A stretch of DNA of 64,000 bases from Deltaproteobacteria bacterium. Lineage in GTDB: Bacteria; Desulfobacterota; DSM-4660; Desulfatiglandales; HGW-15. The stretch covers positions 150,157 to 214,156 of the forward strand of contig JAGVAP010000031.1 of assembly GCA_020060215.1 (NCBI GenBank). The letters are read 5' to 3'. How positions within the stretch are numbered: the stretch's first letter is position 1; every line of letters starts with the position of its first letter. Of the stretch, positions 1,554 to 22,128 are shown piece after piece. A model generated the notes under the pieces. The model did no database searches. It worked only from the letters and a program-made list of their open reading frames with translations, and was not told the DNA's origin. Position numbers and translations under genes: made by a program.

Positions 1554-1632
1554 AGATTCCTCCTTCCCGGAAGGGGCTGGTGTTTACTGTCGATTTCAAA
1601 TGGGAGCACCGGGCTCCGGATCAGGTGCGGAA

Positions 1633-3158: not shown

Positions 3159-3314
3159 GGTCTCACCCATTCAATCGGCGCCACCGGACCGGCTGTTCTC
3201 CGCGACCTTTTCGTCCGTTCCCGCAAGAAATCCCCTCTGTCTCCCCTCTCAGAGAGGGCTTGCCGAATGTCCCCCTCCAGTAGAGGGTGCCAGAAGGAGT
3301 TCGCGCATTCGAAA

Positions 3315-3366: not shown

Positions 3367-3599
3367 TGATTTTGAGTCCGGGGGGAATAAACTCCCCGAG
3401 AGATCCTGTAACTGCCCGCAGGCCACCAGGTCTCTCCCTCCGTTCGAAATGAGCAAAAGAGCAAGGACTTTCCGTGAATCGGGACGATTTCCGGTCACTG
3501 GGCTTCAGGTCACTTGAAAACCAAAAGAGACATGACAATTTCATTCCCTCTCGATACAATCGATTCGGAGACGCCTTATCCTTCTCAGGAGATCGAACG

Positions 3600-4868
3600 A
3601 TGAAGATTGCCTTTCCATGCGGTCATGAAAAAGTCCTTTTGACGCTACCCCCCGGTGCCGAGGTCCTCGAGCCAAGGCCTGTGCCGGTGCTGGAGGATCC
3701 GGTGGGATCGGTCGAGGCGGCCCTTGCGGCCCCGGCGGAGGGGCCGCCGCTGGCGGAGCTGGCCAAGGGGCGAAAAACGGCCTGCGTCGTCATTTCGGAC
3801 ATCACCCGTCCGGTCCCCAACCGCCTGATCCTCCCCCCCCTCCTGAGGAGCCTCGAAGAGGCCGGCATCGATCGGAGCCGGATCCACATTCTCATCGCCA
3901 CGGGCACCCATCGCCCCAACCTGGGCGAGGAGCTCACGGCCCTCGTGGGAAACGACATCGCTGCGAACTACAGGGTGGTCAACCACGACTGTCAAGATCG
4001 GGACAGCCTCCGCCGCATCGGGGAGGTGGACGGCGTGGCCGTCGAAATCAATACCACCTACCTGGACGCGGACCTCAAGATCCTCACCGGCCTCATCGAG
4101 CCCCATCCCTATGCCGGCTATTCGGGCGGCGCAAAGAGCATCCTTCCGGGGCTCTCCAGCCTCGAGACCATGAAATACATGCACTCGTTCAAGATGATCG
4201 CCAGCCCCAAGATCGGCAACAGCGTCCTGGAGGGCAACCCCTTCTATGCGGCTACCGTGAACGCGGGCCGGATGGCCGGGGTCGATTTCATCGTCAATGC
4301 GGTCATCAACAAGGAGAAGGAGCCGTGCGGTTTTTTTGCGGGCGCGCTGAAAGGCGCCCACGACGCAGGCTGCCGCATGGCGGGTGAGGTCTCCGTGGTC
4401 CGCATCGAGAGGCCGGCCGATCTGGTGATCACCTCGGGCGGGGGCGCGCCCATGGATGCGACCTTCTATCAGTGCGGGAAAGGGATGATCGGGGCCAAGG
4501 ACATCTGCCGTCCCGGAGCCACGGTGATCCTGGTCTGCGGGTGCACCCTGGGCATCGGAAGCGGGACTTATGCGGAGATGGTGAGGGACTGCGGCACCTT
4601 CGAGGTCTTCAAACGCAGACACGGCGACCCCCGGGATTTCGTCATGGACCAGTGGGCGGCGCAATGCTACCTGGAGGCCCTGGGCAGGATCGGCCGTGTG
4701 CTGGTCTACTCTCCCGGACTCACGGCCGAGGAACTGAGACCCTTCGGCGCCGATAAAATCGACGACCTTCAGGGGGAGGTGGAGAGGCTTCTGAAGGATC
4801 ATCCGCGGGTGGCGGCCGTGCCCCACGGGCCCTATGTGGTGGGGGTGGTCGGTGGAGAACGCGGGTAG
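3600..4868 (+). CDS. LarA-family (nickel-pincer) racemase/epimerase-like protein, 422 aa
   Basis: This protein belongs to the LarA/DUF2088 family, whose founding member is the nickel-pincer lactate racemase. The key residues are all conserved at nearly LarA spacing: His104 in IATGTHRPN, His169 in EPHPYAGYSGGAKSILPG, Lys179 (cofactor attachment position) in the same block, and His195 in KYMHSF. In Lactobacillus LarA these are 108, 174, 184 and 200. The start is the ATG at 3600 with AGGAG upstream. No larB, larC or larE cofactor genes lie in the window. Many LarA homologues act on 2-hydroxy acids other than lactate, so the substrate is open. It is monocistronic here and divergent from the hbd operon. 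Confidence 0.85.
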   Translation: MKIAFPCGHEKVLLTLPPGAEVLEPRPVPVLEDPVGSVEAALAAPAEGPPLAELAKGRKTACVVISDITRPVPNRLILPPLLRSLEEAGIDRSRIHILIATGTHRPNLGEELTALVGNDIAANYRVVNHDCQDRDSLRRIGEVDGVAVEINTTYLDADLKILTGLIEPHPYAGYSGGAKSILPGLSSLETMKYMHSFKMIASPKIGNSVLEGNPFYAATVNAGRMAGVDFIVNAVINKEKEPCGFFAGALKGAHDAGCRMAGEVSVVRIERPADLVITSGGGAPMDATFYQCGKGMIGAKDICRPGATVILVCGCTLGIGSGTYAEMVRDCGTFEVFKRRHGDPRDFVMDQWAAQCYLEALGRIGRVLVYSPGLTAEELRPFGADKIDDLQGEVERLLKDHPRVAAVPHGPYVVGVVGGERG

Positions 4869-8186: not shown

Positions 8187-8870
8187 TTGATCAGGGTCGA
8201 GTCCATCGTAGACAGCGCCAGGAAGTATCTGGAGGCGTGCATCATTCGCGGGGAGTACAAGCCGGGCCAGCAGGTCAAGGAGCAGGAGGTCGCTTCGTCC
8301 CTGGGGATCAGCCGTCCCCCCATCCGGGAGGCCTTTAAGCTCCTCGAGGCCGAGGGATTTCTGCGCAGGGAACCGCGGCGGGGCGTCTTTGTTTCGGAGT
8401 TCAGCAGCCGCGACATCTGGGAGATCTACACGTTGAAGATCGCCCTGTACACCCTGTCGGTCACCCTGGCCATGGAGAAGGTCTCCAAGGCCGACCTCGA
8501 CAGGCTCGAGGCCATCGTCAAGGAGATGGAGCGGGTGGTCTTCGGCCCCGGCAAGAAGGACCTCATGAGGTATGATGAGCTCAACCATCTCTTTCATGAA
8601 GCCACCGCGGAGATCTCCGGGCACCGCAGGCTCAAGAGGATCCAGGAGTCGCTGAACAACCAGATCAAGAGGATCGCCCTGGGATCCTTTGCGGAGCCGA
8701 AACATCTCAGGGCCTCCTGCCGCTTTCACCGGAAGATCCTGGAGGCCATCAAGGCGGGAGACAGGGAACTGGCGGAGAGCCTGACCCGGGAACACATCCT
8801 CAGGGGCCTGGCGGTCCAGGAAGAGCTTTGCAGGAAGAACGGGTGCCGATCCCATAGAGGTACCCTGTAG
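8187..8870 (+). CDS. GntR family regulator, FadR/FCD subfamily, 227 aa
   Basis: A winged-helix GntR domain occupies about residues 10-75 (KEQEVASSLGISRPPIREAF, then LEAEGFLRREPRRGVFV). An all-helical FCD ligand domain follows to about 215, with the metal/ligand-type histidines in LNHLFHEA and CRFHRKILEA. The start is a TTG at 8187, fixed by a strong GAGGAGG at 8173-8179 seven bases upstream. FCD regulators usually bind small organic acids. It lies 52 nt upstream of the MmsA-like dehydrogenase gene and leads the plus-strand nicotinate-type run, so it probably controls that run and perhaps the divergent MFS gene. Confidence 0.92.
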   Translation: MIRVESIVDSARKYLEACIIRGEYKPGQQVKEQEVASSLGISRPPIREAFKLLEAEGFLRREPRRGVFVSEFSSRDIWEIYTLKIALYTLSVTLAMEKVSKADLDRLEAIVKEMERVVFGPGKKDLMRYDELNHLFHEATAEISGHRRLKRIQESLNNQIKRIALGSFAEPKHLRASCRFHRKILEAIKAGDRELAESLTREHILRGLAVQEELCRKNGCRSHRGTL

Positions 8871-8922: not shown

Positions 8923-10404
8923 ATGTTGCTGGAGGAAGTGAAGAAACACTACGGCCGACTCAAGTTGCTGATCGACGGCGAGTGGGTCGAGTCCAAATCG
9001 ACCGAGATTCACAAGGATAGGAACCCTGCCACCGATGAGGAGATCGCGGAGTTTCCCACCGCCACCAGGGAGGAAATCAACCAGGCGGTCGAAGCGGCCC
9101 AGAGGGGCTTTCAGGTGTGGAGAAACGTGCCCCTCCGGGAGAGGGCCTACATGCTCTTCAGCATGCACGGGAAGTTCCGGCAGCGGTTCGAGGAGATGTG
9201 CCGCATCCTTACCCAGGACCATGGGAGAACCATCGATGAGGCAAGGGGTTCGGTGGCCAGGGTCCTCGAGAACATCGAGTCGGCATGCTCTGCGGTGTAT
9301 GGGCTCCCCAAGGAAAACGAGTTCGTATTCAACCTGGCCAACGGGATCGACGAATATCTTCATTGGGAGCCCCTGGGTCCATTCCTGATCATCACCCCCA
9401 GCAACATCCCCATGCACGCGTGGTCCTCCTTTGTCCCCTACGCCCTTGCCGCCGGATGTCCGGTGGTCATCAGCCCCAGCCGGCAGGATCCCCTGGCCGC
9501 GGAGACCATCAACAGGGTGGCGCTGGAGGCGGGCTTCCCCAAGGGCGTGATCAACATGGTCTATGGCGGAAGGACGATCAACAAGGAGATCCTCTCGCAC
9601 CCCTCCATCAAGGGGGTCGGTTTTATCGGATCCAACAGGGCGGGACATGAGCTCTTCGAGCTCTGCGGCAAGCTGAGGAAGACGTCTTCCATCAATGGAA
9701 ACGGCAAGAATGCAGTCGTGATCATGCCCGATGCGGATGTGGATGCAGCGATCCCCTGGCTGCTCAGGGCCTGCTTCGGGATGACCGGCCAGCGTTGCCT
9801 GGGGGTCGACAACGTCATCGTCATAGGGTCCGCGTACGATGAAGTGAAAAGCAAGTTCAAAGAGGCCGCCTCCAGGATGAAGTTGGGCTACGGCCTGGAC
9901 ACGGATACGACCATGGGGCCGTACACGACCCCCGAAGGGAGGCAGAGCATCCTGCGCTGGACCGAGCAGGCGCTCAAGGACGGGGCTACGATGGTCCTCG
10001 ACGGCAGGACGGCCAGGGTGAAGGATTACCCGAAAGGGTACTTCCTGGGGCCGATCCTTCTCGAAGACGTGAATGTGGACATGCCGAGCGCCAAGGAAGA
10101 GGCCTTCGGCGCCGTGGCGGCCCTGATTCGAGGCGAGAGCATGGATCAGGCGATCGAGTGGATCAACACGAAGACCCATCTGGGCCACTCCGCCTGTATC
10201 ATGACGTCCAGCGGCAAGAGTGCGAGGAAGTTCATCCGGGAGGTGAATGTCGGGAACGTCGGGGTCAACGTCGGCGTGGCCCAGCCCTATGCCTTTTTCC
10301 CCCTGGGTTCGAGGCGGGACTCCTTCGTGGGGACCGCCAAATCGCGGCTGGCCTCCATGAGGATGTTCATGGATGAGAAGACGGTGACGGCGAGATGGGT
10401 CTAG
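8923..10404 (+). CDS. MmsA-like CoA-acylating aldehyde dehydrogenase, 493 aa
   Basis: An aldehyde dehydrogenase superfamily enzyme with the catalytic Cys292 in GMTGQRCLGVD. The position of the usual general-base glutamate block (ELGGK) reads NGNGKNAVVIMPDAD, as in methylmalonate-semialdehyde dehydrogenase, which acylates CoA instead of hydrolysing the thioester. The C-terminus also carries the MmsA-type block NVGVNVGVAQPYAFFPLGSR, then SFVG. MmsA converts a 2-substituted malonate semialdehyde, CoA and NAD+ into an acyl-CoA, CO2 and NADH. 2-Formylglutarate, the product of the enamidase encoded 4 kb downstream, is such a substrate and would give glutaryl-CoA. That assignment is inference; an ordinary aldehyde dehydrogenase role is the alternative. 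It follows the GntR gene by 52 nt. Confidence 0.85.
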   Translation: MLLEEVKKHYGRLKLLIDGEWVESKSTEIHKDRNPATDEEIAEFPTATREEINQAVEAAQRGFQVWRNVPLRERAYMLFSMHGKFRQRFEEMCRILTQDHGRTIDEARGSVARVLENIESACSAVYGLPKENEFVFNLANGIDEYLHWEPLGPFLIITPSNIPMHAWSSFVPYALAAGCPVVISPSRQDPLAAETINRVALEAGFPKGVINMVYGGRTINKEILSHPSIKGVGFIGSNRAGHELFELCGKLRKTSSINGNGKNAVVIMPDADVDAAIPWLLRACFGMTGQRCLGVDNVIVIGSAYDEVKSKFKEAASRMKLGYGLDTDTTMGPYTTPEGRQSILRWTEQALKDGATMVLDGRTARVKDYPKGYFLGPILLEDVNVDMPSAKEEAFGAVAALIRGESMDQAIEWINTKTHLGHSACIMTSSGKSARKFIREVNVGNVGVNVGVAQPYAFFPLGSRRDSFVGTAKSRLASMRMFMDEKTVTARWV

Positions 10405-10589
10405 GTCGGTAGGCAGTAAGCCCGCAGGCGGTCCGCAGCCATCGATACCGCGGGTTCGCTGCGGGGACATATGGAAGAGAGTTGGCAGCGCCGCATCCCG
10501 GGCCGCAGCATCAATCGCATGCAGGGTTCGTCTCTCAGGAGAAAGGAGCATGCAGCAAGAGGGCTTGGAGGCAGCGGAGGAGAAAAGGA

Positions 10590-11084
10590 ATGATCGAACC
10601 TCTCAGGAGAGTGCCGATCTCGTTCGAGGTGAACGGCCGTCCGGTCTCGATGGACGTGGAGGCCGGCGAGACGGCGTTGCATGCCGTCCGGGAAAGGCTC
10701 CGTCTCACGGGCGCCAAAGAAGGGTGCGGGATAGGGGAATGCGGCGCATGCACGATCCTCGTGGATGGAAAGGCCGTCCACGCCTGCCTGATGCTCGCCG
10801 CCCAGCTCGACGGGACCAGCGTACAAACGGTGGAAGGCCTCGCCCAAGGGGAGTCCCTCCATCCCCTCCAGCAGGCCTTTCTCGACCACCACGCGGTGCA
10901 GTGCGGCTTCTGCACGCCCGGACTCCTCATGAGCGCGGTGGCCCTGCTCGAGGAGCATCCACGCCCCGATCTCAAGACGATATCGGACGGGCTTTCGGGC
11001 AACCTCTGCCGCTGCACCGGCTACAGGCAGATCTTTGAGGCCGTGCAGGCGGCAGCGGAAGAGAAAGAGGGGAACAAGCGGTGA
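10590..11084 (+). CDS. Molybdenum hydroxylase 2Fe-2S subunit (nicotinate dehydrogenase-like), 164 aa
   Basis: The small iron-sulfur subunit of a xanthine dehydrogenase-family molybdoenzyme. It carries the plant-ferredoxin-type cluster motif (GCGIGECGACTILVDGK with a fourth Cys in VHAC) and the helical-domain cluster motif (QCGFCTPG, then NLCRCTGY). It passes electrons between the molybdenum centre and FAD. The frame is open from 10482, but the ATG at 10590 has GGAGGAGAAAAGG directly upstream and gives the normal family N-terminus. Its stop overlaps the GTG of the FAD subunit by 4 nt. Context (enamidase and 6-hydroxynicotinate reductase downstream) points to nicotinate hydroxylation at C6. Confidence 0.93.
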   Translation: MIEPLRRVPISFEVNGRPVSMDVEAGETALHAVRERLRLTGAKEGCGIGECGACTILVDGKAVHACLMLAAQLDGTSVQTVEGLAQGESLHPLQQAFLDHHAVQCGFCTPGLLMSAVALLEEHPRPDLKTISDGLSGNLCRCTGYRQIFEAVQAAAEEKEGNKR

Positions 11085-11941
11085 AGTCGGACGTGGCCTA
11101 TCTCAGGCCTTCCAACCTCAAGGAGGCCGTCGCTTTCCTGTCCCGTCACGGACCCGACACGAGGCCGCTTGCCGGCGGGACAGACCTGCTGATCGGCCTG
11201 CGAGCCGGGGAGCTGAAGGCCCGCTACATCATGGATGTGAACCGGATCCCCGAACTGAGGGGGATCGCAGTTACGGAAGAGGGCCTTTCCATCGGGGCGG
11301 GGGCGAAGATCTCCGAGATCGCGGGTTCGGAAGAAGTCAGGCGTTCGGCCCCGGTGCTCCGAAAATCCTGTCTCACCTTCGGAGGCCCGCAGGTCCGAAA
11401 CGCGGCGACCATCGGAGGGAACATCGCGAACGCTTCCCCTTCCGCAGACACCTTCCCCCCCCTGATCGTCCATGAAGCCGTGGCCGTGCTCGCAGGGCCG
11501 CACGGCGAGAGGCGCATACCGGTCGAGCGGTCGGCGGCCGGACCGTACCGGAGCCAGGTCGGGATCGACGAACTGATCGTGCGGTTCATCCTGAAGCCGG
11601 CCGAAGGACAGTACGGTGAGTTCCTGAAGATCGGCAGGCGAAAGGCCCTTTCGATCGCACGGGTCAATATGGCCGTGCTGCTGGAAAAGGACGGCCGGGG
11701 GGCGGTCCGCTTCATCCGGTTCTCTCTCGGCTCGTGCACCCCGGTCCCCTGCCGGATCAGAGAAGTGGAGGAGTATCTGACCGGGAAGGTCCTCGATGAA
11801 ACGGCGGTGGCCGAAGGGGGGCGGCTTGCGGCCGAAAAGATGATCGCGCTCAGCGGCAGGAGACCCACGGCGGTCTACAAAGAGCCGGCCGTGAAGGGGC
11901 TTTTCATGCGGCTGCTTCATCCGATGGTGAAAAATGACTGA
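11081..11941 (+). CDS. Molybdenum hydroxylase FAD subunit, 286 aa
   Basis: The flavin subunit of the same enzyme, of the CoxM/XdhB type: a PCMH-fold FAD-binding domain over about residues 1-170 and a CO dehydrogenase-flavoprotein C-terminal domain. FAD contacts are recognisable in LAGGTDLLIG and NAATIGGNIANASPSAD. It lacks the extra cysteine insertion that carries a 4Fe-4S cluster in 4-hydroxybenzoyl-CoA reductase, which argues against that enzyme. The start is a GTG in the GTGA overlap with the iron-sulfur subunit. The 3' end overlaps the large subunit by 8 nt, so the three subunits are tightly coupled in translation. Confidence 0.92.
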   Translation: MKSDVAYLRPSNLKEAVAFLSRHGPDTRPLAGGTDLLIGLRAGELKARYIMDVNRIPELRGIAVTEEGLSIGAGAKISEIAGSEEVRRSAPVLRKSCLTFGGPQVRNAATIGGNIANASPSADTFPPLIVHEAVAVLAGPHGERRIPVERSAAGPYRSQVGIDELIVRFILKPAEGQYGEFLKIGRRKALSIARVNMAVLLEKDGRGAVRFIRFSLGSCTPVPCRIREVEEYLTGKVLDETAVAEGGRLAAEKMIALSGRRPTAVYKEPAVKGLFMRLLHPMVKND

Positions 11942-14216
11942 GAACGGCGAAGTGATCGGCACCAGTGTCCCTCGAAGGGGCGCCGTCGAGCGTCTGACCG
12001 GGGCGTGCATGTTCAGCTCGGACTACGGTCTCGAAAACCCGCTGACGCTCAAGGTCGTGCGAAGCCCCCATCCCCATGCCCGCATCCTTGGGGTGGACAC
12101 CGCAGAGGCCTCACGGGTTCCGGGGGTGGTGCGGATCTTCACGGCCGGGGACATCCCCGGTAAGAACCTCACCGGGATCATCAACAAGGACCGGCCTCTC
12201 CTGGTCGCAGACAAGGCCCGCTTCTCCGGGGACTCCGTCGCACTCGTGGCCGCCGAGAGCGAAGAGGCAGCGGATAGGGGCGCGGCCGCAGTGAAAGTCG
12301 CCTACGAGAACCTGCCCGCCGTTTACGATCCGGCCGAAGCGCTGGGCGACGGCGCTCCGGCCATACACGAGAAAGGCAACCTGCTCTTCAGGCGAAGGGT
12401 GGTCAGAGGAGATGCGGAAGCCGCCTTTTCATCCTGCGCGGCTGTCGTGGAGGAGACCTACCGGACCTCGTTTCTGGAGCACGCATACCTGGAGCCGGAC
12501 GCAGGGGCCGGCTGGGTGGACGCCGACGGCACCCTGGTGATCATCGCCTCCACCCAGAACCCCCACTACGACCATTCCGAGGTCGTAGCCCTCCTCGGGG
12601 TGGAAGGGGACCGGGTAAGGATCATACAGGCCGCCACGGGGGGCGGCTTCGGCTCCAAGCTGGACCTCAACATGCAGGGGTTCATCGGGCTCGCTCTCTA
12701 CCATCTCCAGAGACCCGTACGCTGCGTGTACAGCCGGGAGGAAACGTTCGCCGCCACCAGCAAGCGCCATCCCCTGATCATGAGGATGAAGACCGGGGCA
12801 GGAAAGGACGGCAGGCTCCAGGCGATGAAATGCCGCATCCTCTGCGACACGGGGGCGTATGGTTCCTACGGCATGGCCGTCGCCTCCCGGGCCGCAGTGC
12901 ATGCGGCCGGGCCCTACCAGATCGGGCACGTAGATACCGAGGCCCTCTGCGTTTACACGAACAACCCGGTCGCGGGCGCCATGCGGGGCTTCGGAACCCC
13001 CCAGATCGCCTTCGCGCACGAAAGCCAGATGGACATGCTGGCCGAAAGGCTGGGCATGGACCCGCTGGAGATCAGGCGGCGCAATGCGCTACGGGTGGGC
13101 TCCGTAACCGCCACCGGCCAGAAGCTTGCGGCCAGCGTCGGCCTGGGGGAATGCCTGGACGCGGTCAGGCCAAGCTATGAAAAGGCGCGAACTTCCAGGA
13201 GCGAGAAAAACCGCTCCCCGTTCACGCGCCGCGGGGTCGGGGTCGGGGCCATGTGGTACGGAATAGGGAACACCGGGGTGCAGAACCCCTCCACCGCTCA
13301 GATCGAGATGGATCTCGATGGGGGGGTCACCCTGTACACCGGGTGCGCGGACATCGGGCAGGGTTCGACGACGGTCCTCGGTCAGATCGCAGGGGGGACC
13401 CTGGGCCTAGCTCCGGACGATATCCGCATGATCGTCGGGGATACGAAACTGACCACCAACGCAGGGGCCAGTTCGGCGAGCAGGCAGACCTACATCTCGG
13501 GAAATGCGGTGAGGGATGCCGCGGCCAAACTGGCGGACGTACTGCTCACGGAGGCGGTCGACCTCATGAAGCTCCCGAAGAGCTCGCTCGCGGTCCAAGG
13601 GGGATTCGTGGTTGACAGGGACGACCCCGGCCGTCGCGTGCCTTTCTCGAAACTGGCGGCCCGCGCACACCGGAGGGGAATCCCGCTGCGTTGGCAGGGC
13701 TACTTCGATCCGGTCACCAGCCCTCTCGACCCGGAGACCGGCCAGGGCGAGCCGTACGCAACCTATGCCTACGCATGCCACGTCGCCGAGGTGACGGTGG
13801 ACATCACCACCGGGGAGGTGACGGTGGATCGGGTGGTCGCCGCCCACGACGTCGGCAGGGCCATTCACCCGGAGGCGGTGGTGGGCCAGATCTGCGGGGG
13901 GGTGGCCATGGGCGTGGGCTTTGCGCTGATGGAGGAGTTTACGCCCGGTGCGACGGCCTCGTACAAGGATTACCACATTCCCACGGCGAACGACATGCCC
14001 GAGGTGGTGCCGATCATTGTGGAGTCGGCCGAACCGACAGGGCCGTTCGGAGCCAAGGGGGTCGGCGAACCTGCGCTCATCCCCACCGCCCCGGCCGTGC
14101 TGAATGCCATCTCGGACGCATTGGGGAAAAGAATCGTCCATCTTCCGGCCAATCTGGAACGGGTGCTGGAGGCGGCATCCGGGAAGCCGCAATGCCAAAG
14201 ATCAAAGGACAGATGA
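11934..14216 (+). CDS. Molybdenum hydroxylase molybdopterin subunit (nicotinate dehydrogenase-like), 760 aa
   Basis: The large catalytic subunit that binds the molybdopterin-cytosine-type cofactor. The family motifs are in order: GGGFGSK at about 237-242, AMRGFGTPQ at about 349-356, a GQGSTTV glycine loop, and GAKGVGEPAL with the catalytic-position Glu712. The AYRCSFR loop of aerobic CO dehydrogenase is absent, so it is not CoxL. In Eubacterium barkeri nicotinate dehydrogenase this subunit is split into two polypeptides (and uses selenium); here it is a single chain. The adjacent enamidase and 6-hydroxynicotinate reductase genes make nicotinate the best substrate guess, though another N-heterocycle or aldehyde is possible. 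No XdhC-type maturation gene is seen nearby. Confidence 0.9.
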   Translation: MTENGEVIGTSVPRRGAVERLTGACMFSSDYGLENPLTLKVVRSPHPHARILGVDTAEASRVPGVVRIFTAGDIPGKNLTGIINKDRPLLVADKARFSGDSVALVAAESEEAADRGAAAVKVAYENLPAVYDPAEALGDGAPAIHEKGNLLFRRRVVRGDAEAAFSSCAAVVEETYRTSFLEHAYLEPDAGAGWVDADGTLVIIASTQNPHYDHSEVVALLGVEGDRVRIIQAATGGGFGSKLDLNMQGFIGLALYHLQRPVRCVYSREETFAATSKRHPLIMRMKTGAGKDGRLQAMKCRILCDTGAYGSYGMAVASRAAVHAAGPYQIGHVDTEALCVYTNNPVAGAMRGFGTPQIAFAHESQMDMLAERLGMDPLEIRRRNALRVGSVTATGQKLAASVGLGECLDAVRPSYEKARTSRSEKNRSPFTRRGVGVGAMWYGIGNTGVQNPSTAQIEMDLDGGVTLYTGCADIGQGSTTVLGQIAGGTLGLAPDDIRMIVGDTKLTTNAGASSASRQTYISGNAVRDAAAKLADVLLTEAVDLMKLPKSSLAVQGGFVVDRDDPGRRVPFSKLAARAHRRGIPLRWQGYFDPVTSPLDPETGQGEPYATYAYACHVAEVTVDITTGEVTVDRVVAAHDVGRAIHPEAVVGQICGGVAMGVGFALMEEFTPGATASYKDYHIPTANDMPEVVPIIVESAEPTGPFGAKGVGEPALIPTAPAVLNAISDALGKRIVHLPANLERVLEAASGKPQCQRSKDR

Positions 14217-14313
14217 ATGCCCCGATTCCGGTTTCAGCAGCCTCTTAGATTGGGGCTTCGACATCCGGAGTTTGGTTGATCCCGTTCCGTCGAAATCTCA
14301 AAGGAGGTCGCGC

Positions 14314-15474
14314 ATGCCTACTCTGTTGCTGAAGAATATCGGCACCCTCGTGAGCGGCGAGATCGCAAATCCGTTGCTCAAGGCGGACGCCGTCTGGATC
14401 GAGGACGGGGTGATCAGGAAGGTCGGTCTTCTGAAGGACATGGACGAAGGATCAGCGAGCCAGGTGGTCGACTGTGCGGGGAGCACGGTAGCGCCGGGCC
14501 TCATCGACTCCCATGTCCATCCTGTGCTGGGCGACTTCACCCCCAGGCAGAAGCAGCAGGACTTCCTCGAGAGCGAGGTTCACGGCGGCGTGACCACGGC
14601 GATCTCGGCAGGAGAAGTCCATCTCCCGGGGAGACCCAAGGATCCTGCCGGGACCAAGGCCCTCGCGATCCTGGCCGCCAAGTCCTTTGCCGGATTCAGG
14701 CCCGGCGGCATGAAGGTGCTGGGCGGCAGCGTGATCCTCGAGAAGGGCCTGGTCGAAAAGGATTTCGAAGAGATGGCCAGGGAAGGGGTGCGGGTGGTTG
14801 GGGAAATCGGTCTCGGCTCCGTCAAGTCCCCTGAGGAGGCGGCGCCCATGGTGAAATGGGCCAGGAACCACGGCATGGTCGTCATGATGCACACCGGAGG
14901 GACCTCCATCCCCGGAAGCACGACGGTGGGCCTGGAGCAGGTCCTCGGTGCCGATCCGGACATCGTATCTCACATCAACGGCGGCCCCACCGCCTGTTCG
15001 CTGGAAGAAGCGGAAAAACTCATCGCCAAGACCAACATGGCCGTGGAGGTTGTCCATTGCGGCAACATGAAGACCGCAGTGGAGATCGGTTCCCTGCTGG
15101 TCAAACACAACGCCCTCCATCGTGCAATCCTAGGCAACGACGCCCCTTCGGGGACCGGTGTCGTGCCCCTCGGCATCCTCCGGGTGGCCAGCCTGCTTGC
15201 CGGCCTGACCCCGGTCAAACCGGAAGAGGCCCTCTGCATGGCCAGCGGCAATACGGCCAGGCTCTACAAGCTCAATCGAGGCGTCCTCGAACCGGGCAGG
15301 GAAGCGGACATCGTCGTCATGGACACCCCCATGGGTTCCGTGGGAAAGGACGCGCTCGCCGCCCTTGCCGCGGGCGATGTCCCGGCCGTCTCCATGGTGC
15401 TGGTGGACGGCAAGATCGTCGTCCATATCAGCCGCAACACGCCGCCCCCGGTGCGAAAGCCGACGGTGAAATGA
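14314..15474 (+). CDS. ena: Enamidase (6-oxo-1,4,5,6-tetrahydronicotinate hydrolase), 386 aa
   Basis: An amidohydrolase that opens 1,4,5,6-tetrahydro-6-oxonicotinate to 2-formylglutarate and ammonia in nicotinate fermentation. From memory it matches Eubacterium barkeri enamidase closely in length and in long diagnostic stretches: LPGRPKDPAGTKALAI, MHTGGTSIPGS, SHINGGPTA, GNDAPSGTG and SRNTPP. The binuclear-metal residues are visible: His67 and His69 in DSHVH, Glu164 in GEIGLG, His193, His220 and Asp276. The start ATG at 14314 has an ideal AAAGGAGG, although the frame is open upstream to 14104. It follows the molybdenum hydroxylase genes by 97 nt and precedes the 6-hydroxynicotinate reductase gene. 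Confidence 0.93.
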   Translation: MPTLLLKNIGTLVSGEIANPLLKADAVWIEDGVIRKVGLLKDMDEGSASQVVDCAGSTVAPGLIDSHVHPVLGDFTPRQKQQDFLESEVHGGVTTAISAGEVHLPGRPKDPAGTKALAILAAKSFAGFRPGGMKVLGGSVILEKGLVEKDFEEMAREGVRVVGEIGLGSVKSPEEAAPMVKWARNHGMVVMMHTGGTSIPGSTTVGLEQVLGADPDIVSHINGGPTACSLEEAEKLIAKTNMAVEVVHCGNMKTAVEIGSLLVKHNALHRAILGNDAPSGTGVVPLGILRVASLLAGLTPVKPEEALCMASGNTARLYKLNRGVLEPGREADIVVMDTPMGSVGKDALAALAAGDVPAVSMVLVDGKIVVHISRNTPPPVRKPTVK

Positions 15475-15706: not shown

Positions 15707-17218
15707 ATGAAAGTTGACGAAGACAAGTGCATCGGGTGCGGGTATTGCGTGAGGGACTGCCCCCTGGGGGCCGTCCGCCTGCAGGAGAAGAAGGCGGTTT
15801 TCCTGGAAAACTGCACCGAATGCGGCGCATGTATCAGGATCTGCGGGCAGGGGGCCATCCTGCGCGAGGCTGCACCCTCCGCCGATGGCCTCACATGCGG
15901 TTCCTGTCCGATCAACTGCCGGATCAGGCAAGGGAACATCGGCGCCTGCCAGAGGTACCGGAACGACGGGGGCAGGCTTGTCCGGATCACACCCCTCCAC
16001 CCCTTCGAGGAGGTGAAAGAGGTCGTCGGGCCCGAGCCTGCAGAGTCCATCCGAACCCCTCTCGTCACGGGCATCGGGGCGGGCACCACCTATCCGGACT
16101 GCAAGCCTGCCCCTGTGATCCTCCGCGGGAGACGGAGGGACGTGGACGTGGTCACCGTGGCGACCGAGGCCCCCCTGAGCTACAGCGGGATCATGGTCAA
16201 GATCGATACCGATGTGGGGGTCGGTGAAGAGGGTTCCGACGTCCTCGTCGGCAAGAGGAAGGTCGGGATGCTCGTGACCGAGCAGTATGGGTCCAAGATG
16301 CTCTCCATCGGCGGTGTGAACCTCCTGACCGGGAAGGACGGTCTCGTGGTTGCAAGGACCGTCGCCGATCTCGCCAACAGGAAGTCGGTGAGGGTGGCCG
16401 TGCGGGGGGGGGCCGGGCTGGAGATCCAGGTGGGTCGGCCGCCGGTCATCGACGGCGAAACACCGTCGAACATGAGGGTCGGATGCGGAAGCGCCACTCT
16501 GGGCTTGTTCGCCCCTATCCTCGAGGCCGCGGCCGACGAGGTGATCATCCTCGATTCCCATCTCACGAGCCTGATGAGCGAGCATGCGGCCGGCGTTTTC
16601 GCGGGCGCCAGGCCCTCCGGGCTCAAGCTCAAGTTCAGGATGAGCACTCCGGGCCGCTACTTCGGAGACCACGGCGGCGGGTGGGGGGGCACCTCCATCG
16701 TCAACCCCCTTGACGTGATCGCGGGCGTGGATCGACCGTCGGCCCGACCCGGGATGCGCGTCCTGATCACGGAGACGACGGGGCAGAGGGGATCCCTGTT
16801 CGAGCTCACCGGCGAGGGATCGTTCCTGGAGATCCCCATGAGCGAAGAATGCATGGAGGCGCTGAGGGCCATCTCCTCCAGCTGCGAGCCGTCGCGGGTG
16901 TCGGCCATGTACATGGGCGGTTCAGGGGGAAGCGCAAGGGCCGGGGTTGCCCTTTACCCGGTCAAGCTTACGCAGGCCGTTCATGCTGCAAAGGCCCACC
17001 TGACGATCGGCGGCGCCCCGGCGTTCGTGATGCCGGGCGGGGGCATCAACTTCATGGTGGACGTCGAACGGGTGAAGAAGGGCTCCTTCTACTGGACCCC
17101 GACGCCGGCCACGATCTGCCCGATCGAGTACACCATGGAGGTCGGGGAGTACGAGGCCATGGGCGGGCACGTGGAGGCCATGAAACCGTTTGGCACCGGT
17201 CATCGACCATTCGACTGA
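15707..17218 (+). CDS. hnr: 6-Hydroxynicotinate reductase, 503 aa
   Basis: This ferredoxin-dependent reductase converts 6-hydroxynicotinate to 1,4,5,6-tetrahydro-6-oxonicotinate, the step between nicotinate dehydrogenase and enamidase. The N-terminal 50 residues hold two 4Fe-4S motifs (Cys8/11/14/18 and Cys36/39/42/46). Four further cysteines (64, 67, 71, 81) follow in TCGSCPINC and nearby, suggesting another cluster. The rest is a glycine-rich family-specific catalytic region, recognisable in MRVGCGSATLGLF, MYMGGSGGSARAG and GGAPAFVMPGGGINFM. Length and architecture fit the Eubacterium barkeri enzyme as I remember it. It is 232 nt after ena and 227 nt before the UPF0280 gene. The ribosome site before the ATG is weak. 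Confidence 0.9.
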   Translation: MKVDEDKCIGCGYCVRDCPLGAVRLQEKKAVFLENCTECGACIRICGQGAILREAAPSADGLTCGSCPINCRIRQGNIGACQRYRNDGGRLVRITPLHPFEEVKEVVGPEPAESIRTPLVTGIGAGTTYPDCKPAPVILRGRRRDVDVVTVATEAPLSYSGIMVKIDTDVGVGEEGSDVLVGKRKVGMLVTEQYGSKMLSIGGVNLLTGKDGLVVARTVADLANRKSVRVAVRGGAGLEIQVGRPPVIDGETPSNMRVGCGSATLGLFAPILEAAADEVIILDSHLTSLMSEHAAGVFAGARPSGLKLKFRMSTPGRYFGDHGGGWGGTSIVNPLDVIAGVDRPSARPGMRVLITETTGQRGSLFELTGEGSFLEIPMSEECMEALRAISSSCEPSRVSAMYMGGSGGSARAGVALYPVKLTQAVHAAKAHLTIGGAPAFVMPGGGINFMVDVERVKKGSFYWTPTPATICPIEYTMEVGEYEAMGGHVEAMKPFGTGHRPFD

Positions 17219-17445: not shown

Positions 17446-18303
17446 ATGATCACGGCTTACGAGCGAAACATCCATGTGCTTGAAGGCGGCTCGATCATGG
17501 CCGAGTGCGGTCCCATGCGTCTGGTGATCTCATCCCATCTGGGGCGGGTGCCGCAGCGGGAGATGAACCTCGAGGCGGCCAGGGTCTCTTTCGGATTGCT
17601 GGAGCGGGTTGCACGGCTCCAGCACATCCTGAAACAGAGACAGGACCGTCTGCCTCCCCGTCTCGAAGATCCCCTGGGCGCCGGGATGATCCGGAGTGTC
17701 CTGGATATCGGGGACGAGGACCTCACCCCGATGGCTGCCGTGGCCGGGACGATCGCAGATGCCGTGGCCGATTTTCTGCTGGAGCGCGGTATGACCAAGG
17801 TGGTCGTCAACAACGGGGGGGATATCGCGATCCGTCTTCAGGAGGGGCAGTCGGCCAGGGTGGGGATCCGCACGGATGTGACCAGGGGGGATTACGAGCA
17901 CGTCATCGCACTGGACGCGGGCCGCGCATCATGGGGCGTTGCGACCAGCGGGCTTGGAGGAAGGAGCCTCACACGGGGCGTTGCCTCTGCCGCCACCGTG
18001 GTCGCCTCGACCGCCTCTCTGGCCGATGCCGGGGCCACCGCGACCGCCAATGCGAGTCTTGTGGAGGATCCGCAGATCGTCCAGCGGCCTGCCGAAGAGG
18101 TGGATCCCCACACGGACATCCGCTCCCTTCCGGTGACCGTGAGCATAGGGTCGCTCAGCCCCGAGAAAAAAAGGGAGGCCGTCTCGAAGGCCATGGCCAG
18201 GGCTGAGGAACTGGTGTCGAGGGGTGTCATACTCGGGGCCCTTGTCGCAGTGGGTGGCGAGTTGGGAATGACCTCTTTCATGAAAGAAAGGTTGGCAGGA
18301 TGA
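17446..18303 (+). CDS. UPF0280 family protein (ApbE-like fold), 285 aa
   Basis: A conserved protein of the UPF0280 family, related in fold to ApbE/thiamine-type flavin transferases. Family stretches are clear: MLRLV-like N-terminus (CGPMRLVISSHLG), DLTPMAAVAGTIADAVADFL at about 90-110, KVVVNNGGDIAIRL, and SWGVATSGLGGRS. Its biochemical function is not established. The family is often a neighbour of 6-hydroxynicotinate reductase and the 'amino acid synthesis' family, as here, so a role in maturing or assisting the reductase (for example flavin attachment) is a reasonable inference. The ATG at 17446 has only a weak ribosome site. Confidence 0.82.
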   Translation: MITAYERNIHVLEGGSIMAECGPMRLVISSHLGRVPQREMNLEAARVSFGLLERVARLQHILKQRQDRLPPRLEDPLGAGMIRSVLDIGDEDLTPMAAVAGTIADAVADFLLERGMTKVVVNNGGDIAIRLQEGQSARVGIRTDVTRGDYEHVIALDAGRASWGVATSGLGGRSLTRGVASAATVVASTASLADAGATATANASLVEDPQIVQRPAEEVDPHTDIRSLPVTVSIGSLSPEKKREAVSKAMARAEELVSRGVILGALVAVGGELGMTSFMKERLAG

Positions 18304-18427: not shown

Positions 18428-19006
18428 ATGGAAGTGAGAAAGTATGTGACGATGGTGGAGGAGATCCATTCCGAAGGGGGACGCCCTGTAAACCCCCCTC
18501 AGAGAAGGGCCGCTGCCGTGGCCGTGATCAAGAACCCCTTTGCCGGGAAATATGCGGAAGACCTGACCCCCCTCATCGACATCGGGGATCGACTCGGTGG
18601 AATCCTCGCGAAGATGGCGGTCGACGCGCTCGGGATCAAGCCGGAGGCTGCCGAAGGATATGGCAAGGCTGCGATCGTGGGTGAAAACGGGGAGAGAGAA
18701 CATGCCGCAGCCATCCTGCACCCCAAGCTGGGGACCCCTATGAGGAATGCCGTAGGAGGGGGAAAGGCGATCATCCCGTCGGCCAAGAAGATCGGAGGCA
18801 TGGGGACGGAGATCGATGTGCCGACTCATTTCAAAGATGCGGCCTTTGTGCGCAGCCACTTCGACGCCATGGCGGTACGCATCGACGATGCCCCACGGGC
18901 GGATGAAATCGTGGTGGCCGTGGTCGTTACGAATTGCGGGAGACCGCATCCCCGCATCGGCGGCCTCAAGAAGGAGGAGGCCAGGAAGGAAGACGGGCTG
19001 AGGTGA
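18428..19006 (+). CDS. 'Amino acid synthesis' (PF06684-type) family protein, 192 aa
   Basis: A small conserved protein whose family name does not reflect a proven function. Recognisable stretches include VRKYVTMVEEIHSEGG at the N-terminus, AVIKNPFAGKYAEDL at about 38-52, EHAAAILHPKLGTPMRNAVGGGKAIIPS at about 90-117 (conserved His, Lys), and VTNCGRPHPRIGG near the end. The start ATG at 18428 has AAAGGAGAGAG upstream. It follows UPF0280 by 124 nt. The trio hnr/UPF0280/this family suggests a shared role in N-heterocycle breakdown. I cannot assign a reaction. Confidence 0.82.
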   Translation: MEVRKYVTMVEEIHSEGGRPVNPPQRRAAAVAVIKNPFAGKYAEDLTPLIDIGDRLGGILAKMAVDALGIKPEAAEGYGKAAIVGENGEREHAAAILHPKLGTPMRNAVGGGKAIIPSAKKIGGMGTEIDVPTHFKDAAFVRSHFDAMAVRIDDAPRADEIVVAVVVTNCGRPHPRIGGLKKEEARKEDGLR

Positions 19007-19060: not shown

Positions 19061-19225
19061 AAGGAGGATCCATGATCGATGATCGAGGGGACCCGTTGCA
19101 ACCACTGGACGGATTTGCTGTTCAACGCGGTGGCGCCCTGCCGGCCTGGGGCGCGGGCAAAAAGGCGTCGCCCATTCCTTTCCCGAACCCCCGGTGCGGG
19201 AGAGGAAGAAAAGGAGGAGCAGGAT

Positions 19226-20305
19226 ATGTGTGAAAACCACGGTATGAGCAGGCGTAACTTCTTGAAGGCGTCGTTGATCGGCGGGGCGGGGCTCGCGGCC
19301 GGGCTGGGCCACGGCCACCTGGATCTGAGCCATGCACAGTCGGCCAACATACGGTTCAGCACCTGGCACGTTCCTGTCGGCTACGAGGTGAAGACCGTCT
19401 GGGAGCCTATGCTGGCGCAGCTCAAGAAGAAGAGCCAGGACAAGATCACGTCCACCATGTTTCCCGGCGGGGCTCTGGGAAAAGGGCCTGAGCACTACGA
19501 CATCGTGGCGAAAGGCCTCTCCGACATGGGTTATTTCACCGCCACCTGGACCCCCGGCCGGTTTCCTCTGACCGATGTGCTCTCCATGGCTGCGTGGGTG
19601 GACGGGAAGGACATTGCCACGGACATCGGAAACGCCATGTACAAGAGGATCCTCCACAAGGAGTTCGAGGCCGTGAAGGTGGTCGAGCTGAACGGCTGTA
19701 TCCAGGCCTTCCTGTGGACCAAGAAGCCGGTCAAGAGCCTGGACGACGTGAAAGGCATGAAGGTCCGGAGCCCCGGCGGTCAGCAGACGAACTACATCAA
19801 GGCCATCGGGGCGGAACCCATCTTCATGCCCCTGGGCGATGTCTACATGGCCATGGAAACCGGCACCATCGACGGCATCGTCACCTGTCCTCCCCTGATC
19901 CTCTCCTTTAAACTCCACGAGGTGGCCAAGCATGCCGTGGTCACCACCTTCGGGTGCGTTTCCGAGGGCGTGGTGATGAACAAGGACAGCTGGAACAAGA
20001 TCCCGGACAACCTCAAGCCCGTGGTGGACGAGGTCTGCCAGAACCCGTTCAAAAGCACAGGGGGGCTGACACGGGATGTCTACAAATCCATGATGAAAGA
20101 GGTCACGGACAAGAAGGTGAACCTCTATGAGCTGCCTTCTCAGGAGGCGGAAAAGTGGTACGAGCGGTTCCAGGAGGTGACCAGGAAGTGGGTCGCGGAC
20201 CTGGAGGCGAAGAACCTCCCTGCCAAGGAAACGGTCAAGATGTACAACGAGGAATGCGAGAAGCGGGGCGTCAAGGTCGTGGCCTTCCCGAAGGAGTGGA
20301 AGTAA
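19226..20305 (+). CDS. dctP: TRAP transporter substrate-binding protein (DctP), Tat-type signal, 359 aa
   Basis: The periplasmic solute receptor of a tripartite ATP-independent transporter, which delivers an organic acid to the QM membrane pair. The N-terminus carries a twin-arginine motif (SRRNFLKASLIGGAGLAAG), so export is probably by Tat. The mature part has the DctP pattern: a KGPEHYDIVAKGLSDMGY block, KGMKVRSPGGQQTNYIKAIGAEP with the carboxylate-binding Arg, and VYMAMETGTIDGI. The start ATG at 19226 is set by AGGAGG at 19212-19217; the upstream open frame is not used. It is 219 nt downstream of the nicotinate-type genes and leads P-Q-M, so nicotinate or a related acid is a plausible ligand. 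Confidence 0.93.
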   Translation: MCENHGMSRRNFLKASLIGGAGLAAGLGHGHLDLSHAQSANIRFSTWHVPVGYEVKTVWEPMLAQLKKKSQDKITSTMFPGGALGKGPEHYDIVAKGLSDMGYFTATWTPGRFPLTDVLSMAAWVDGKDIATDIGNAMYKRILHKEFEAVKVVELNGCIQAFLWTKKPVKSLDDVKGMKVRSPGGQQTNYIKAIGAEPIFMPLGDVYMAMETGTIDGIVTCPPLILSFKLHEVAKHAVVTTFGCVSEGVVMNKDSWNKIPDNLKPVVDEVCQNPFKSTGGLTRDVYKSMMKEVTDKKVNLYELPSQEAEKWYERFQEVTRKWVADLEAKNLPAKETVKMYNEECEKRGVKVVAFPKEWK

Positions 20306-20332
20306 CCAACCGGATCGGAGGGGATGAACCAC

Positions 20333-20824
20333 ATGGGATGGACCGAGGTCCGACAGGGTACCCGGCGGCTCAGTTTCTACGCGTGCGCCGTGGGCATGGC
20401 CATGCTCATACCGCTCATGCTACTCACCTTCGCAGACGTTGCGCTGAGGGGTTTTCTGAACAAGCCGATCCCCGGCACCTTTGAGCTGTCCCAGTATATC
20501 CTGGCCGTCTTCATCCTGCTGGGTGCCGCGTACACCCAGCAGGTGAAAGGCCATGTGGGGGTGGATTTCGTGACCTCCCGTCTGTCCCCGCGCATCCGGG
20601 TGATCTGCGAAATCGTCACCACCCTGTTGAGCCTCTTCATCATCGCGGTGGTGGTGTGGCAAGGGTGGGTGCAGGGGATTTCGGAGAAGGCCGTTTCGGA
20701 CCAGCTTCGAATCCCCCAGTACCCGTTCCGGATCCTGGTTTCCGTCGGAGGACTCCTCCTGTGGTTTGAACTGCTCATCGACCTCATCGATTCTTTCGGC
20801 AGACTCAGGAGGAGTGAACGTTGA
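20333..20824 (+). CDS. dctQ: TRAP transporter small membrane subunit (DctQ), 163 aa
   Basis: The four-helix small permease subunit. Hydrophobic segments lie at about 16-40 (SFYACAVGMAMLIPLMLLTF), 55-75 (ILAVFILLGAAYTQQ), 95-120 and 135-155. The family motif with VKGHVGVDF follows helix 2. The frame offers ATGs at 20324 and 20333; I choose 20333 because GGAGGGG (20317-20323) abuts the first one but is well placed for the second. The stop overlaps the TTG start of the large subunit (TTGA). Confidence 0.9.
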   Translation: MGWTEVRQGTRRLSFYACAVGMAMLIPLMLLTFADVALRGFLNKPIPGTFELSQYILAVFILLGAAYTQQVKGHVGVDFVTSRLSPRIRVICEIVTTLLSLFIIAVVVWQGWVQGISEKAVSDQLRIPQYPFRILVSVGGLLLWFELLIDLIDSFGRLRRSER

Positions 20825-22128
20825 GCCCCATTACCATCGGAATCCTCGGAAGCGTCCTGCTGCTGGTTCTTCTCTTCCTCGGGATGCCCATCGCCTTTGT
20901 CATGATGTTCGTCGGATTTCTCGGAATCGGGTACCTGGCCTCCTTCAGCGCCGCGCTGCCCGTGGTGGCCAATACCGTCTACGAGACCGCCTCCTACTAT
21001 CCGTACACCATCATCCCCCTGTTCATTCTGATGGGGGCCTTTGCGGGAAGCGCGGGGATCACCGCCAAACTATACCAGTCCTTTGACAAGTGGTTCCGGA
21101 GACTCCCCGGGGGGTTGGGAATCGCGACCATCGCGGCGTGCGCGTGCTTCGCCGCGCTGAGCGGCTCTTCCGTGGCGGCGGCTGCGGCCATGGGGACCAT
21201 TGCCATCCCCGAGATGCGCCGTTTCAAGTACGATCCCAGCCTTGCCGTGGGCGTCGTAGCGGCAGGGGGGACCCTCAGCTTCCTCATCCCCCCCTCTCTC
21301 GGGTTCGTGGTGTACGGGATGCTGACGGAGCAGTCGATCGGCAAGCTGCTGGTCTCAGGGATCCTGCCCGGCCTGCTCCTTTCCTTCGCATTCATTGCCG
21401 TGGTGGTCGCCAAGGTGAAGATCAATCCCGATCTCGCGCCTATGACACCGGGGAAGATCCGCTGGCGGGAAAAGGTTCGGGCCTTCGGAGGGGTTTGGGA
21501 GACGCTCCTGGTTTTTCTGATCGTCATGGGCGGGATCTATCTCGGTTTCGTCAACCCCACGGAGGCGGGAGCGATCGGCGCCATGGCCCTGCTGCTCATC
21601 GTCCTCGGCAAGATGAAATTGACCTGGAAGAGCCTGTCGGCCGCCCTTTTCGAGGCCGCCAGGATCTCCATCCTGGTCCTCTTTCTGGTGGCCGGAGCCA
21701 ACGTCTTCAGCTATTTTCTCGCGCTCTCCACGATCCCTACCAGCGTCTCCTCGTGGCTGGCCGGGCTCGGGATCTCCCCCTACTTCGTGCTCTTGATCAT
21801 TGTGTTGATCTACCTCGTCCTCGGATGCTTCCTCGATGCCATCTCCATGATGGTGTTGACCATGCCCGTCATCTTCCCCGTGGTCAAGACCCTGGGATTC
21901 GATCCGATCTGGTTCGGCGTCGTCTGCGTGATCATGATGGAGGCGGGCCTCATCACGCCGCCGGTAGGACTCAATGTCTATACCCTGGCCGGTGTGGTGA
22001 AAGACGTTCCCATGACGACCATCTTCAGGGGGGCCTATCCGTTCCTGTTTGCGATGTTCGTCGTCACCTTCCTGATCGCCGTGTTTCCCGGCATATGCCT
22101 CTATCTCCCCTCCCTGATGGGGAGATGA
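20821..22128 (+). CDS. dctM: TRAP transporter large permease subunit (DctM), 435 aa
   Basis: The main sodium-driven permease of the TRAP system, with about 12 membrane helices. It shows the ion-transporter family pattern: LFLGMPIAFVMMFVGFLG at the start, PLFILMGAFAGSAGI, GGTLSFLIPPSLGFVVYG, and LITPPVGLNVYTLAGV near the end. The TTG start at 20821 sits in a 4-nt TTGA overlap with the DctQ stop and has AGGAGGAG upstream, so translation is coupled. It closes the plus-strand run that started at the GntR gene. Confidence 0.92.
   Translation: MSPITIGILGSVLLLVLLFLGMPIAFVMMFVGFLGIGYLASFSAALPVVANTVYETASYYPYTIIPLFILMGAFAGSAGITAKLYQSFDKWFRRLPGGLGIATIAACACFAALSGSSVAAAAAMGTIAIPEMRRFKYDPSLAVGVVAAGGTLSFLIPPSLGFVVYGMLTEQSIGKLLVSGILPGLLLSFAFIAVVVAKVKINPDLAPMTPGKIRWREKVRAFGGVWETLLVFLIVMGGIYLGFVNPTEAGAIGAMALLLIVLGKMKLTWKSLSAALFEAARISILVLFLVAGANVFSYFLALSTIPTSVSSWLAGLGISPYFVLLIIVLIYLVLGCFLDAISMMVLTMPVIFPVVKTLGFDPIWFGVVCVIMMEAGLITPPVGLNVYTLAGVVKDVPMTTIFRGAYPFLFAMFVVTFLIAVFPGICLYLPSLMGR

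Follow-up and report, generated by a model that had tools for sequence, protein, structure and literature searches.

The stretch analysed here, called the window below, comprises 64,000 nucleotides of Deltaproteobacteria bacterium DNA (GenBank assembly GCA_020060215.1, contig JAGVAP010000031.1, positions 150,157 to 214,156) and carries on its plus strand a cluster in which a gene for an MmsA-like aldehyde dehydrogenase (ALDH) is followed by genes for a molybdenum (Mo) hydroxylase, an enamidase and 6-hydroxynicotinate reductase (HNR) (Table 1; other genomes and loci carry G and L numbers). The upper part of the nicotinate pathway of Eubacterium barkeri type, namely a nicotinate dehydrogenase-like enzyme, HNR and enamidase, was complete in the window. 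The enamidase aligned collinearly over residues 4-381 with 2vun, which we take to be the enamidase of E. barkeri, and its H-x-H, Glu, His, His and Asp motifs were kept in the alignment; the mechanically called open reading frame (ORF) begins at 14104, and the ATG at 14314 fits the 2vun match. An HNR homologue with 88% identity was found in Deltaproteobacteria bacterium HGW-Deltaproteobacteria-15, and identity to the HNR of the E. barkeri-type clusters L056, L058 and L061 was 49-53%. An earlier note on this DNA had named both enamidase and HNR, and these assignments were confirmed by the 2vun match and by homologues annotated as HNR. The note had also placed the ALDH at the head of the plus-strand run, a position that belongs instead to a GntR/FCD-family regulator gene, a homologue of which adjoins the ALDH gene in several relatives (e.g. 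L001, L005, L007, L008, L009, L036 and L050).

Table 1. Features of the window considered in the text
Feature	Position	Strand	Remarks
Thiolase, TetR regulator and 3-hydroxyacyl-CoA dehydrogenase (HBD)	378-3170	-	
GntR/FCD-family regulator	8187..8870	+	PF07729, PF00392; 5' neighbour of the dehydrogenase
MmsA-like ALDH, 493 aa	8923..10404	+	PF00171, 380 bits; proposed 2-formylglutarate dehydrogenase
[2Fe-2S] subunit of Mo hydroxylase	10590..11084	+	PF01799, PF00111; start codon chosen by reading
FAD subunit of Mo hydroxylase	11081..11941	+	PF00941, PF03450
Mo-binding subunit, nicotinate-dehydrogenase-like	11934..14216	+	Single chain, not two; best PDB matches 3hrd_A (400 bits) and 3hrd_B (255 bits)
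Enamidase	14314..15474	+	2vun, 475 bits
HNR	15707..17218	+	Several close homologues so named by public sources
ApbE-like (UPF0280-type) protein	17446..18303	+	Follows HNR; PF02424, 29.5 bits; NF003322, 199 bits, below cut-off 290
PF06684 'amino acid synthesis' family protein	18428..19006	+	PF06684, 251 bits
TRAP solute-binding protein DctP	19079..20305	+	PF03480, 137 bits; possible nicotinate uptake
TRAP DctQ subunit	20324..20824	+	PF04290, 97 bits
TRAP DctM subunit	20821..22128	+	PF06808, 332 bits

The order Mo hydroxylase, enamidase, HNR was kept in many relatives, and the arrangement of the cluster genes is far beyond chance. The predicted conversion of nicotinate to 2-formylglutarate by the cluster is well supported because of the enamidase match to 2vun, the match of the Mo-binding subunit to 3hrd and the homologues named HNR. 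The Mo hydroxylase would form 6-hydroxynicotinate from nicotinate, HNR would reduce it to 1,4,5,6-tetrahydro-6-oxonicotinate, and the enamidase would release 2-formylglutarate and ammonium from the latter.

We consider it likely, on comparative grounds, that the ALDH is a CoA-acylating, decarboxylating 2-formylglutarate dehydrogenase that yields glutaryl-CoA and so forms a third lower branch of the pathway, and it probably replaces the longer B12-dependent route of E. barkeri. Chemically, 2-formylglutarate is malonate semialdehyde substituted with a carboxyethyl group, and an MmsA reaction with this substrate yields glutaryl-CoA plus CO2. Cys292 would form a hemithioacetal with the aldehyde of 2-formylglutarate and hydride would pass to NAD(P)+; the enzyme-bound 2-carboxy thioester would then lose CO2, and CoA would accept the acyl group. 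We infer this activity from the linkage of the gene with HNR, its mutual exclusion with a B12-dependent mutase and its active-site residues.

The best NCBIfam model for the ALDH was TIGR01722 (CoA-acylating methylmalonate-semialdehyde dehydrogenase, MMSDH) with 364.5 bits. The best PDB match was MMSDH 1t90 (292 bits), presumably the Bacillus subtilis enzyme, and each of the ten best-scoring solved relatives bears the name methylmalonate-semialdehyde dehydrogenase. The sequence N-G-N-G-K starts with Asn258, and Cys292 is the catalytic residue, so that the MmsA-like dehydrogenase with NGNGK and Cys292 described in the earlier note is indeed present. A 61-row tree united the window ALDH and 27 relatives in one clade with a support of 100/100, hereafter type I ALDH, which is nested in a larger MmsA-like acylating group and apart from 20 MmsA-like paralogues of the same genome set. 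The 28 aligned rows represent the window and 27 of the 29 carrier genomes described below; L102 (G043), with an ALDH cut short, and a broken gene of G045 were omitted. The catalytic Cys and the oxyanion Asn were conserved in all 28 rows, as were two Arg (Arg113 and Arg291 of the window ALDH), which we take to be those used by MmsA enzymes in the active site, and in all rows the deacylating Glu of ELGGK was replaced by Asn. Every type I row thus showed the active-site pattern of MMSDH (catalytic Cys, no deacylating Glu, two Arg), whereas E. coli AldA and GabD retained the deacylating Glu and were without both Arg. The predicted type I active site favours an acylating over a hydrolysing enzyme.

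These residues also bear on the main rival explanation, an Azorhizobium-like scheme with prior decarboxylation. In this scheme 2-formylglutarate would first lose CO2, spontaneously or by another enzyme, to give glutarate semialdehyde, which the ALDH would oxidise either to glutarate, followed by CoA transfer, or to glutaryl-CoA. It is established chemistry that beta-aldehydo acids decarboxylate easily, and the Azorhizobium lower route is summarised in one paper as 'via glutarate' (PMC3511419). Hydrolysis to free glutarate is nevertheless unlikely because the deacylating Glu is Asn throughout the type I rows, and the two conserved Arg point to a carboxylate next to the aldehyde. No CoA-transferase was recognised in gene families present in at least three loci, few of which were profile-scanned and the rest assessed by reading, and no ALDH relative was encoded at 1e-5 in four plasmid stretches of about 29 kb that contain HNR, taken from 28 proteobacterial records. 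Prior decarboxylation is in our estimate unlikely, and direct acylation is preferred.

Linkage of the ALDH with HNR was analysed across 84,980 species, each represented by a single genome, which were scanned with an HNR alignment and two peptide patterns. This gave 70 loci, a subset of the HNR genes in the genome collection, that by title came mostly from Deltaproteobacteria/Desulfobacterota, with a few Clostridia, one Armatimonadetes and one Planctomycetes bin. Type I ALDH was encoded in the fetched stretch of 26 of the 70 loci (27 counting an edge fragment in L014). Genome-wide, it was found in 29 of 49 HNR genomes, which account for 50 of the 70 loci, one genome having two of them, and were picked after the locus-level results were known, and in 13 of the 20 remaining genomes, which consist mostly of short contigs (total 42/69). 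Orthologues are encoded, for example, in Desulfospira joergensenii DSM 10085 (L050) and in strain NaphS2 (L006). Of the first 29 carriers, 28 have the ALDH on the same contig as an HNR gene and no more than about 13 kb away; the exception is G026, where it is on a 5.3-kb contig. Co-occurrence of the mmsA-like, enamidase and HNR genes across genomes, a check proposed in the earlier note, was borne out.

Two class samples chosen without regard to HNR gave the same association. Among all 85 genomes of the class of G003, ALDH was present in 19, HNR in 25 and both in 17 (odds ratio 62, Fisher p 4.6e-10), and among 389 genomes drawn evenly from the class of G034 the corresponding numbers were 19, 19 and 15 (odds ratio 343, Fisher p 3.5e-20), both p values being too small because the genomes are related and not independent. 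At the ALDH threshold of 1e-140 used in these samples, G077 (a 70% fragment) and G355 (the edge fragment in L014) were scored as ALDH-less, and further misses are possible in the G034 class because only 3, or at most 4, candidates per genome were scored. The association of ALDH and HNR recurs in distant lineages.

The enzymes of the clostridial lower route, reported in the earlier note as missing from the window, were indeed not found there: queries for the B12 mutase, GlmL and 2-hydroxymethylglutarate-dehydrogenase-like, PrpF-like, LeuC-like and LeuD-like proteins gave no relatives in the window at E 1e-15. A B12 mutase with the B12-binding domain at the C-terminal end and no NCBIfam match at 1e-20 was encoded in 8 of the 70 HNR loci, together with subsets of GlmL, a 3-hydroxyisobutyrate-dehydrogenase relative, a PrpF-like isomerase and LeuC/LeuD-like genes. 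From the known pathway, these loci are read as carrying the E. barkeri-type lower pathway. Genome-wide among the 49 HNR genomes, the mutase occurred in 9, type I ALDH in 29 and both in none (p 8e-5). The search for the mutase that the earlier note had suggested was run in relatives of the window organism, on which the glutaryl-CoA dehydrogenase test below rests as well; no mutase was found in the 29 ALDH carriers nor, at 1e-60, in any of the 85 genomes of the G003 class (which include seven of the 20 remaining HNR genomes), while the same query detected it in 9 of the 49.

A further explanation would be that an E. barkeri-type lower route lies elsewhere in the genome of the window organism and that the ALDH is an ordinary MmsA of valine or inositol metabolism placed here by chance. 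The mutase evidence does come from relatives and not from that genome itself. Against this, the nearest relatives found, G001 (86% ALDH identity), G119 and G004, had no mutase match at 1e-60, and an ordinary valine/inositol MmsA was rejected because the type I clade is apart from the 20 paralogues and co-occurs with HNR. We regard this explanation as very improbable.

Neither type I ALDH nor mutase was found in 11 of the 49 HNR genomes. Another MmsA-like clade, distinct from type I and likewise lacking the deacylating Glu, was encoded in clusters L025, L026, L028 and L043 (about 180-1700), where it adjoins branched-chain-type transporter genes in the same place in which L044 (Desulfomonile) has the type I clade, and G015 also has a member (L104). 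At its contig end, L042 has a truncated gene whose product is 55% identical to the E. barkeri-type dehydrogenase, and a 35% relative in G049 was left unclassified. No enamidase match was present beside the HNR homologue in the fetched stretches of L024, L037 and L038, which possibly belong to another ring-reduction pathway. The apparent second recruitment of an MmsA-like clade, independent of the first, and the cofactor loop described below are the most surprising points of the analysis. We lean, with somewhat less confidence than for the reaction itself, towards a wider view in which a dedicated 2-formylglutarate dehydrogenase clade defines a third lower branch that needs no B12 and extends over Desulfobacterota and some further phyla, different MmsA-like clades have been recruited twice to the same place, and the remodelled loop perhaps serves NADP+ use or fast release.

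On the side of the product, an acyl-CoA dehydrogenase of G004 matched glutaryl-CoA dehydrogenase 3mpi, presumably that of Desulfococcus multivorans, with 642 bits, over twice the score of the next family. The search for glutaryl-CoA dehydrogenase proposed in the earlier note succeeded in relatives: at 1e-115, 20 of the 29 ALDH genomes encoded the enzyme with an identity of at least 65% and 5 more encoded a relative with 49-56%, and none of the 9 mutase genomes had a match. The alpha subunit of glutaconyl-CoA decarboxylase (GcdA) was encoded within 2 kb of glutaryl-CoA dehydrogenase in five of six neighbourhoods (L135, L143, L144, L145 and L146), of which L143 belongs to the closest relative, G001. 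The GcdA of L135 matched 1pix with 761 bits and the five copies were 68-100% identical to it; the neighbourhood L138 (G008) contained only a 23% carboxyltransferase relative. The ORF caller was crude and missed GcdA in L143, which was recovered later; shared-family counts are lower bounds because it picked wrong frames in some loci. Neither glutaryl-CoA dehydrogenase nor GcdA was found in the window at 1e-5, and both are expected elsewhere in the genome of the window organism. There, glutaryl-CoA dehydrogenase and a biotin-dependent glutaconyl-CoA decarboxylase would convert glutaryl-CoA to crotonyl-CoA, which would then yield acetyl-CoA.

Several results, in addition to the relatedness of the sampled genomes, weigh against the proposed reaction. 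The window ALDH stays below the curated cut-off of TIGR01722 (448.5 bits). The conserved Lys that we take to bind the cofactor ribose is Ser184 in all 28 type I rows, in contrast to Lys in 33 of 33 others including AldA and GabD, and at residue 187, three positions further, where many ALDHs have a Glu that presumably sets NAD+ preference, 24 of the 28 rows have Arg or Lys. NADH as a product is uncertain because of these two replacements, and the remodelled loop may reflect a use of NADP+ or a rapid release of the cofactor. Glutaryl-CoA dehydrogenase was not found at 1e-115 in four of the 29 carriers (G030, G033, G046 and G048), and in the G003 class it occurred in 15 of 19 ALDH carriers versus 47 of 66 other genomes (p 0.36); its presence is necessary rather than telling because it is common in this class regardless of the ALDH. 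The thiolase/HBD operon, taken in the earlier note as support from 5 kb away, was matched neither within 20 kb upstream of the G001 ALDH nor at a single one of the 70 HNR loci. It was rejected as support and is weak evidence, since it is not found near the nicotinate cluster in relatives. Type I ALDH was not matched in 27 of the 69 HNR genomes, and the two class samples contained 6 ALDH carriers without an HNR match and 12 HNR carriers without an ALDH match. G047 has enamidase and HNR and none of the alternatives was found in it. G069, G071 and G099 encode enamidase and HNR with neither type I ALDH nor mutase found, and G454 encodes the two with no type I ALDH found, the mutase not having been sought there; all four are bins, 2.4 to 3.2 Mb in size and perhaps incomplete, but they remain exceptions. 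The shorter branch to glutaryl-CoA suggested in the earlier note is therefore supported in part: it stands in its genomic tests and not in its appeal to the thiolase/HBD operon, and its NADH is in doubt.

The 12 HNR carriers of the class samples without an ALDH match, and G069, G071 and G099, would fit another explanation. In it, the substrate of the ALDH is a different aldehyde within this catabolon, for example one that arises from a second pyridine carboxylate or in a side path, while genes elsewhere in the genome deal with 2-formylglutarate. The occurrence of two HNR loci in some organisms (L008 and L065 in G010; L063 and L140 in G046) points the same way. The mutual exclusion of ALDH and B12 mutase in the 49 genomes speaks against it, and so does the independent MmsA-like clade in clusters without type I, which points to the step after 2-formylglutarate; the possible incompleteness of the three bins weakens their testimony. 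We judge action on another aldehyde improbable, and 2-formylglutarate remains the preferred substrate.

In each of these two genomes one of the paired HNR clusters is strongly diverged (HNR 44-45%, enamidase 39-42%), as is L064, which hints that a similar pathway may serve a different pyridine carboxylate. A nicotinamidase-like gene was present in 11 of the 70 HNR loci (e.g. L012:8118-8762), so some organisms may feed nicotinamide into the pathway; the one such gene scanned gave 173.8 bits with PRK11609 (cut-off 174). The ApbE-like and PF06684 genes occurred near HNR in dehydrogenase-type and mutase-type clusters alike and therefore probably belong to the shared upper steps. The HNR of E. barkeri carries covalent flavin, and the ApbE-like protein could attach flavin to HNR. 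Homologues of DctP were found inside or beside the cluster in several relatives.

Between the thiolase/HBD region and the nicotinate cluster, a lactate-racemase-like (LarA) protein (PF09861, PF21113) is encoded at 3597-4868 on the plus strand; no link to the nicotinate cluster was found for it, except a 35% relative in L008. The minus strand between 44041 and 60910 encodes TRAP proteins, 2-oxoacid dehydrogenase E1 alpha and beta, an S15-family peptidase-like protein, UbiD, TctA/TctC, biotin carboxylase, a PYC_OADA domain protein and a thiolase-like protein, and is perhaps another acid-degradation operon.

If the reading is true, nicotinate enters the glutaryl-CoA and crotonyl-CoA pool by one oxidative step without B12 radical chemistry, and its breakdown is linked to glutaconyl-CoA decarboxylase, an enzyme type known as a sodium pump (PMC8473912). 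Type I ALDH would then be a marker gene for the B12-free branch in sediment metagenomes. Desulfococcus niacini, a nicotinic-acid-degrading sulfate reducer, was reportedly described in 1983, and a gene-level account of the fate of 2-formylglutarate in sulfate reducers was not found in the open-licence literature searched. Titles and the beginnings of abstracts in that literature proposed no MmsA-type step in nicotinate breakdown, and we know of no description of a CoA-acylating, decarboxylating 2-formylglutarate dehydrogenase activity.

Among known systems, the gene cluster for nicotinate fermentation in E. barkeri is reportedly that of Alhapel 2006, and the glutarate route of Azorhizobium caulinodans is said to go back to Kitts 1992. 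The Azorhizobium route comprises separate decarboxylation, oxidation to free glutarate and CoA transfer. Nicotinate dehydrogenase, HNR and enamidase homologues are common to the E. barkeri and window clusters. In the window, in contrast to E. barkeri, the Mo-binding subunit is one chain, and an MmsA-like dehydrogenase gene stands in place of the genes for methyleneglutarate mutase, GlmL and the following enzymes. PMC9304392 and PMC3511419 describe the upper pathway from E. barkeri and Azorhizobium. A. caulinodans and Bradyrhizobiaceae share with the window the upper HNR and ring hydrolysis steps and a C5 route via glutarate or glutaryl-CoA; their route is described as running via glutarate (PMC3511419), whereas direct acylation is proposed here. 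The plasmid HNR clusters of other Alpha- and Betaproteobacteria (L071-L074) include genes annotated as hydantoinase or acetophenone-carboxylase subunits (L071, L072 and L073) and two annotated 'amino acid synthesis' genes each in L073 and L074, the latter also encoding a 51% enamidase relative. Relatives of the window have orthologue-level matches to glutaryl-CoA dehydrogenase (3mpi) and to the alpha subunit of glutaconyl-CoA decarboxylase (1pix, 3gf3). With the MMSDH enzymes MmsA and IolA (TIGR01722; 1t90, 4zz7), type I ALDH has in common the fold family, the Cys, the two Arg and the missing deacylating Glu. It differs from them as a separate clade with a score under the family cut-off, with Asn where MmsA/IolA have Leu, Gln or Ala at the Glu position, Ser for the cofactor Lys and N-I-P for N-F-P. 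Type I ALDH would thus represent a known fold and known chemistry on a new substrate, in an alternative lower branch of nicotinate breakdown.

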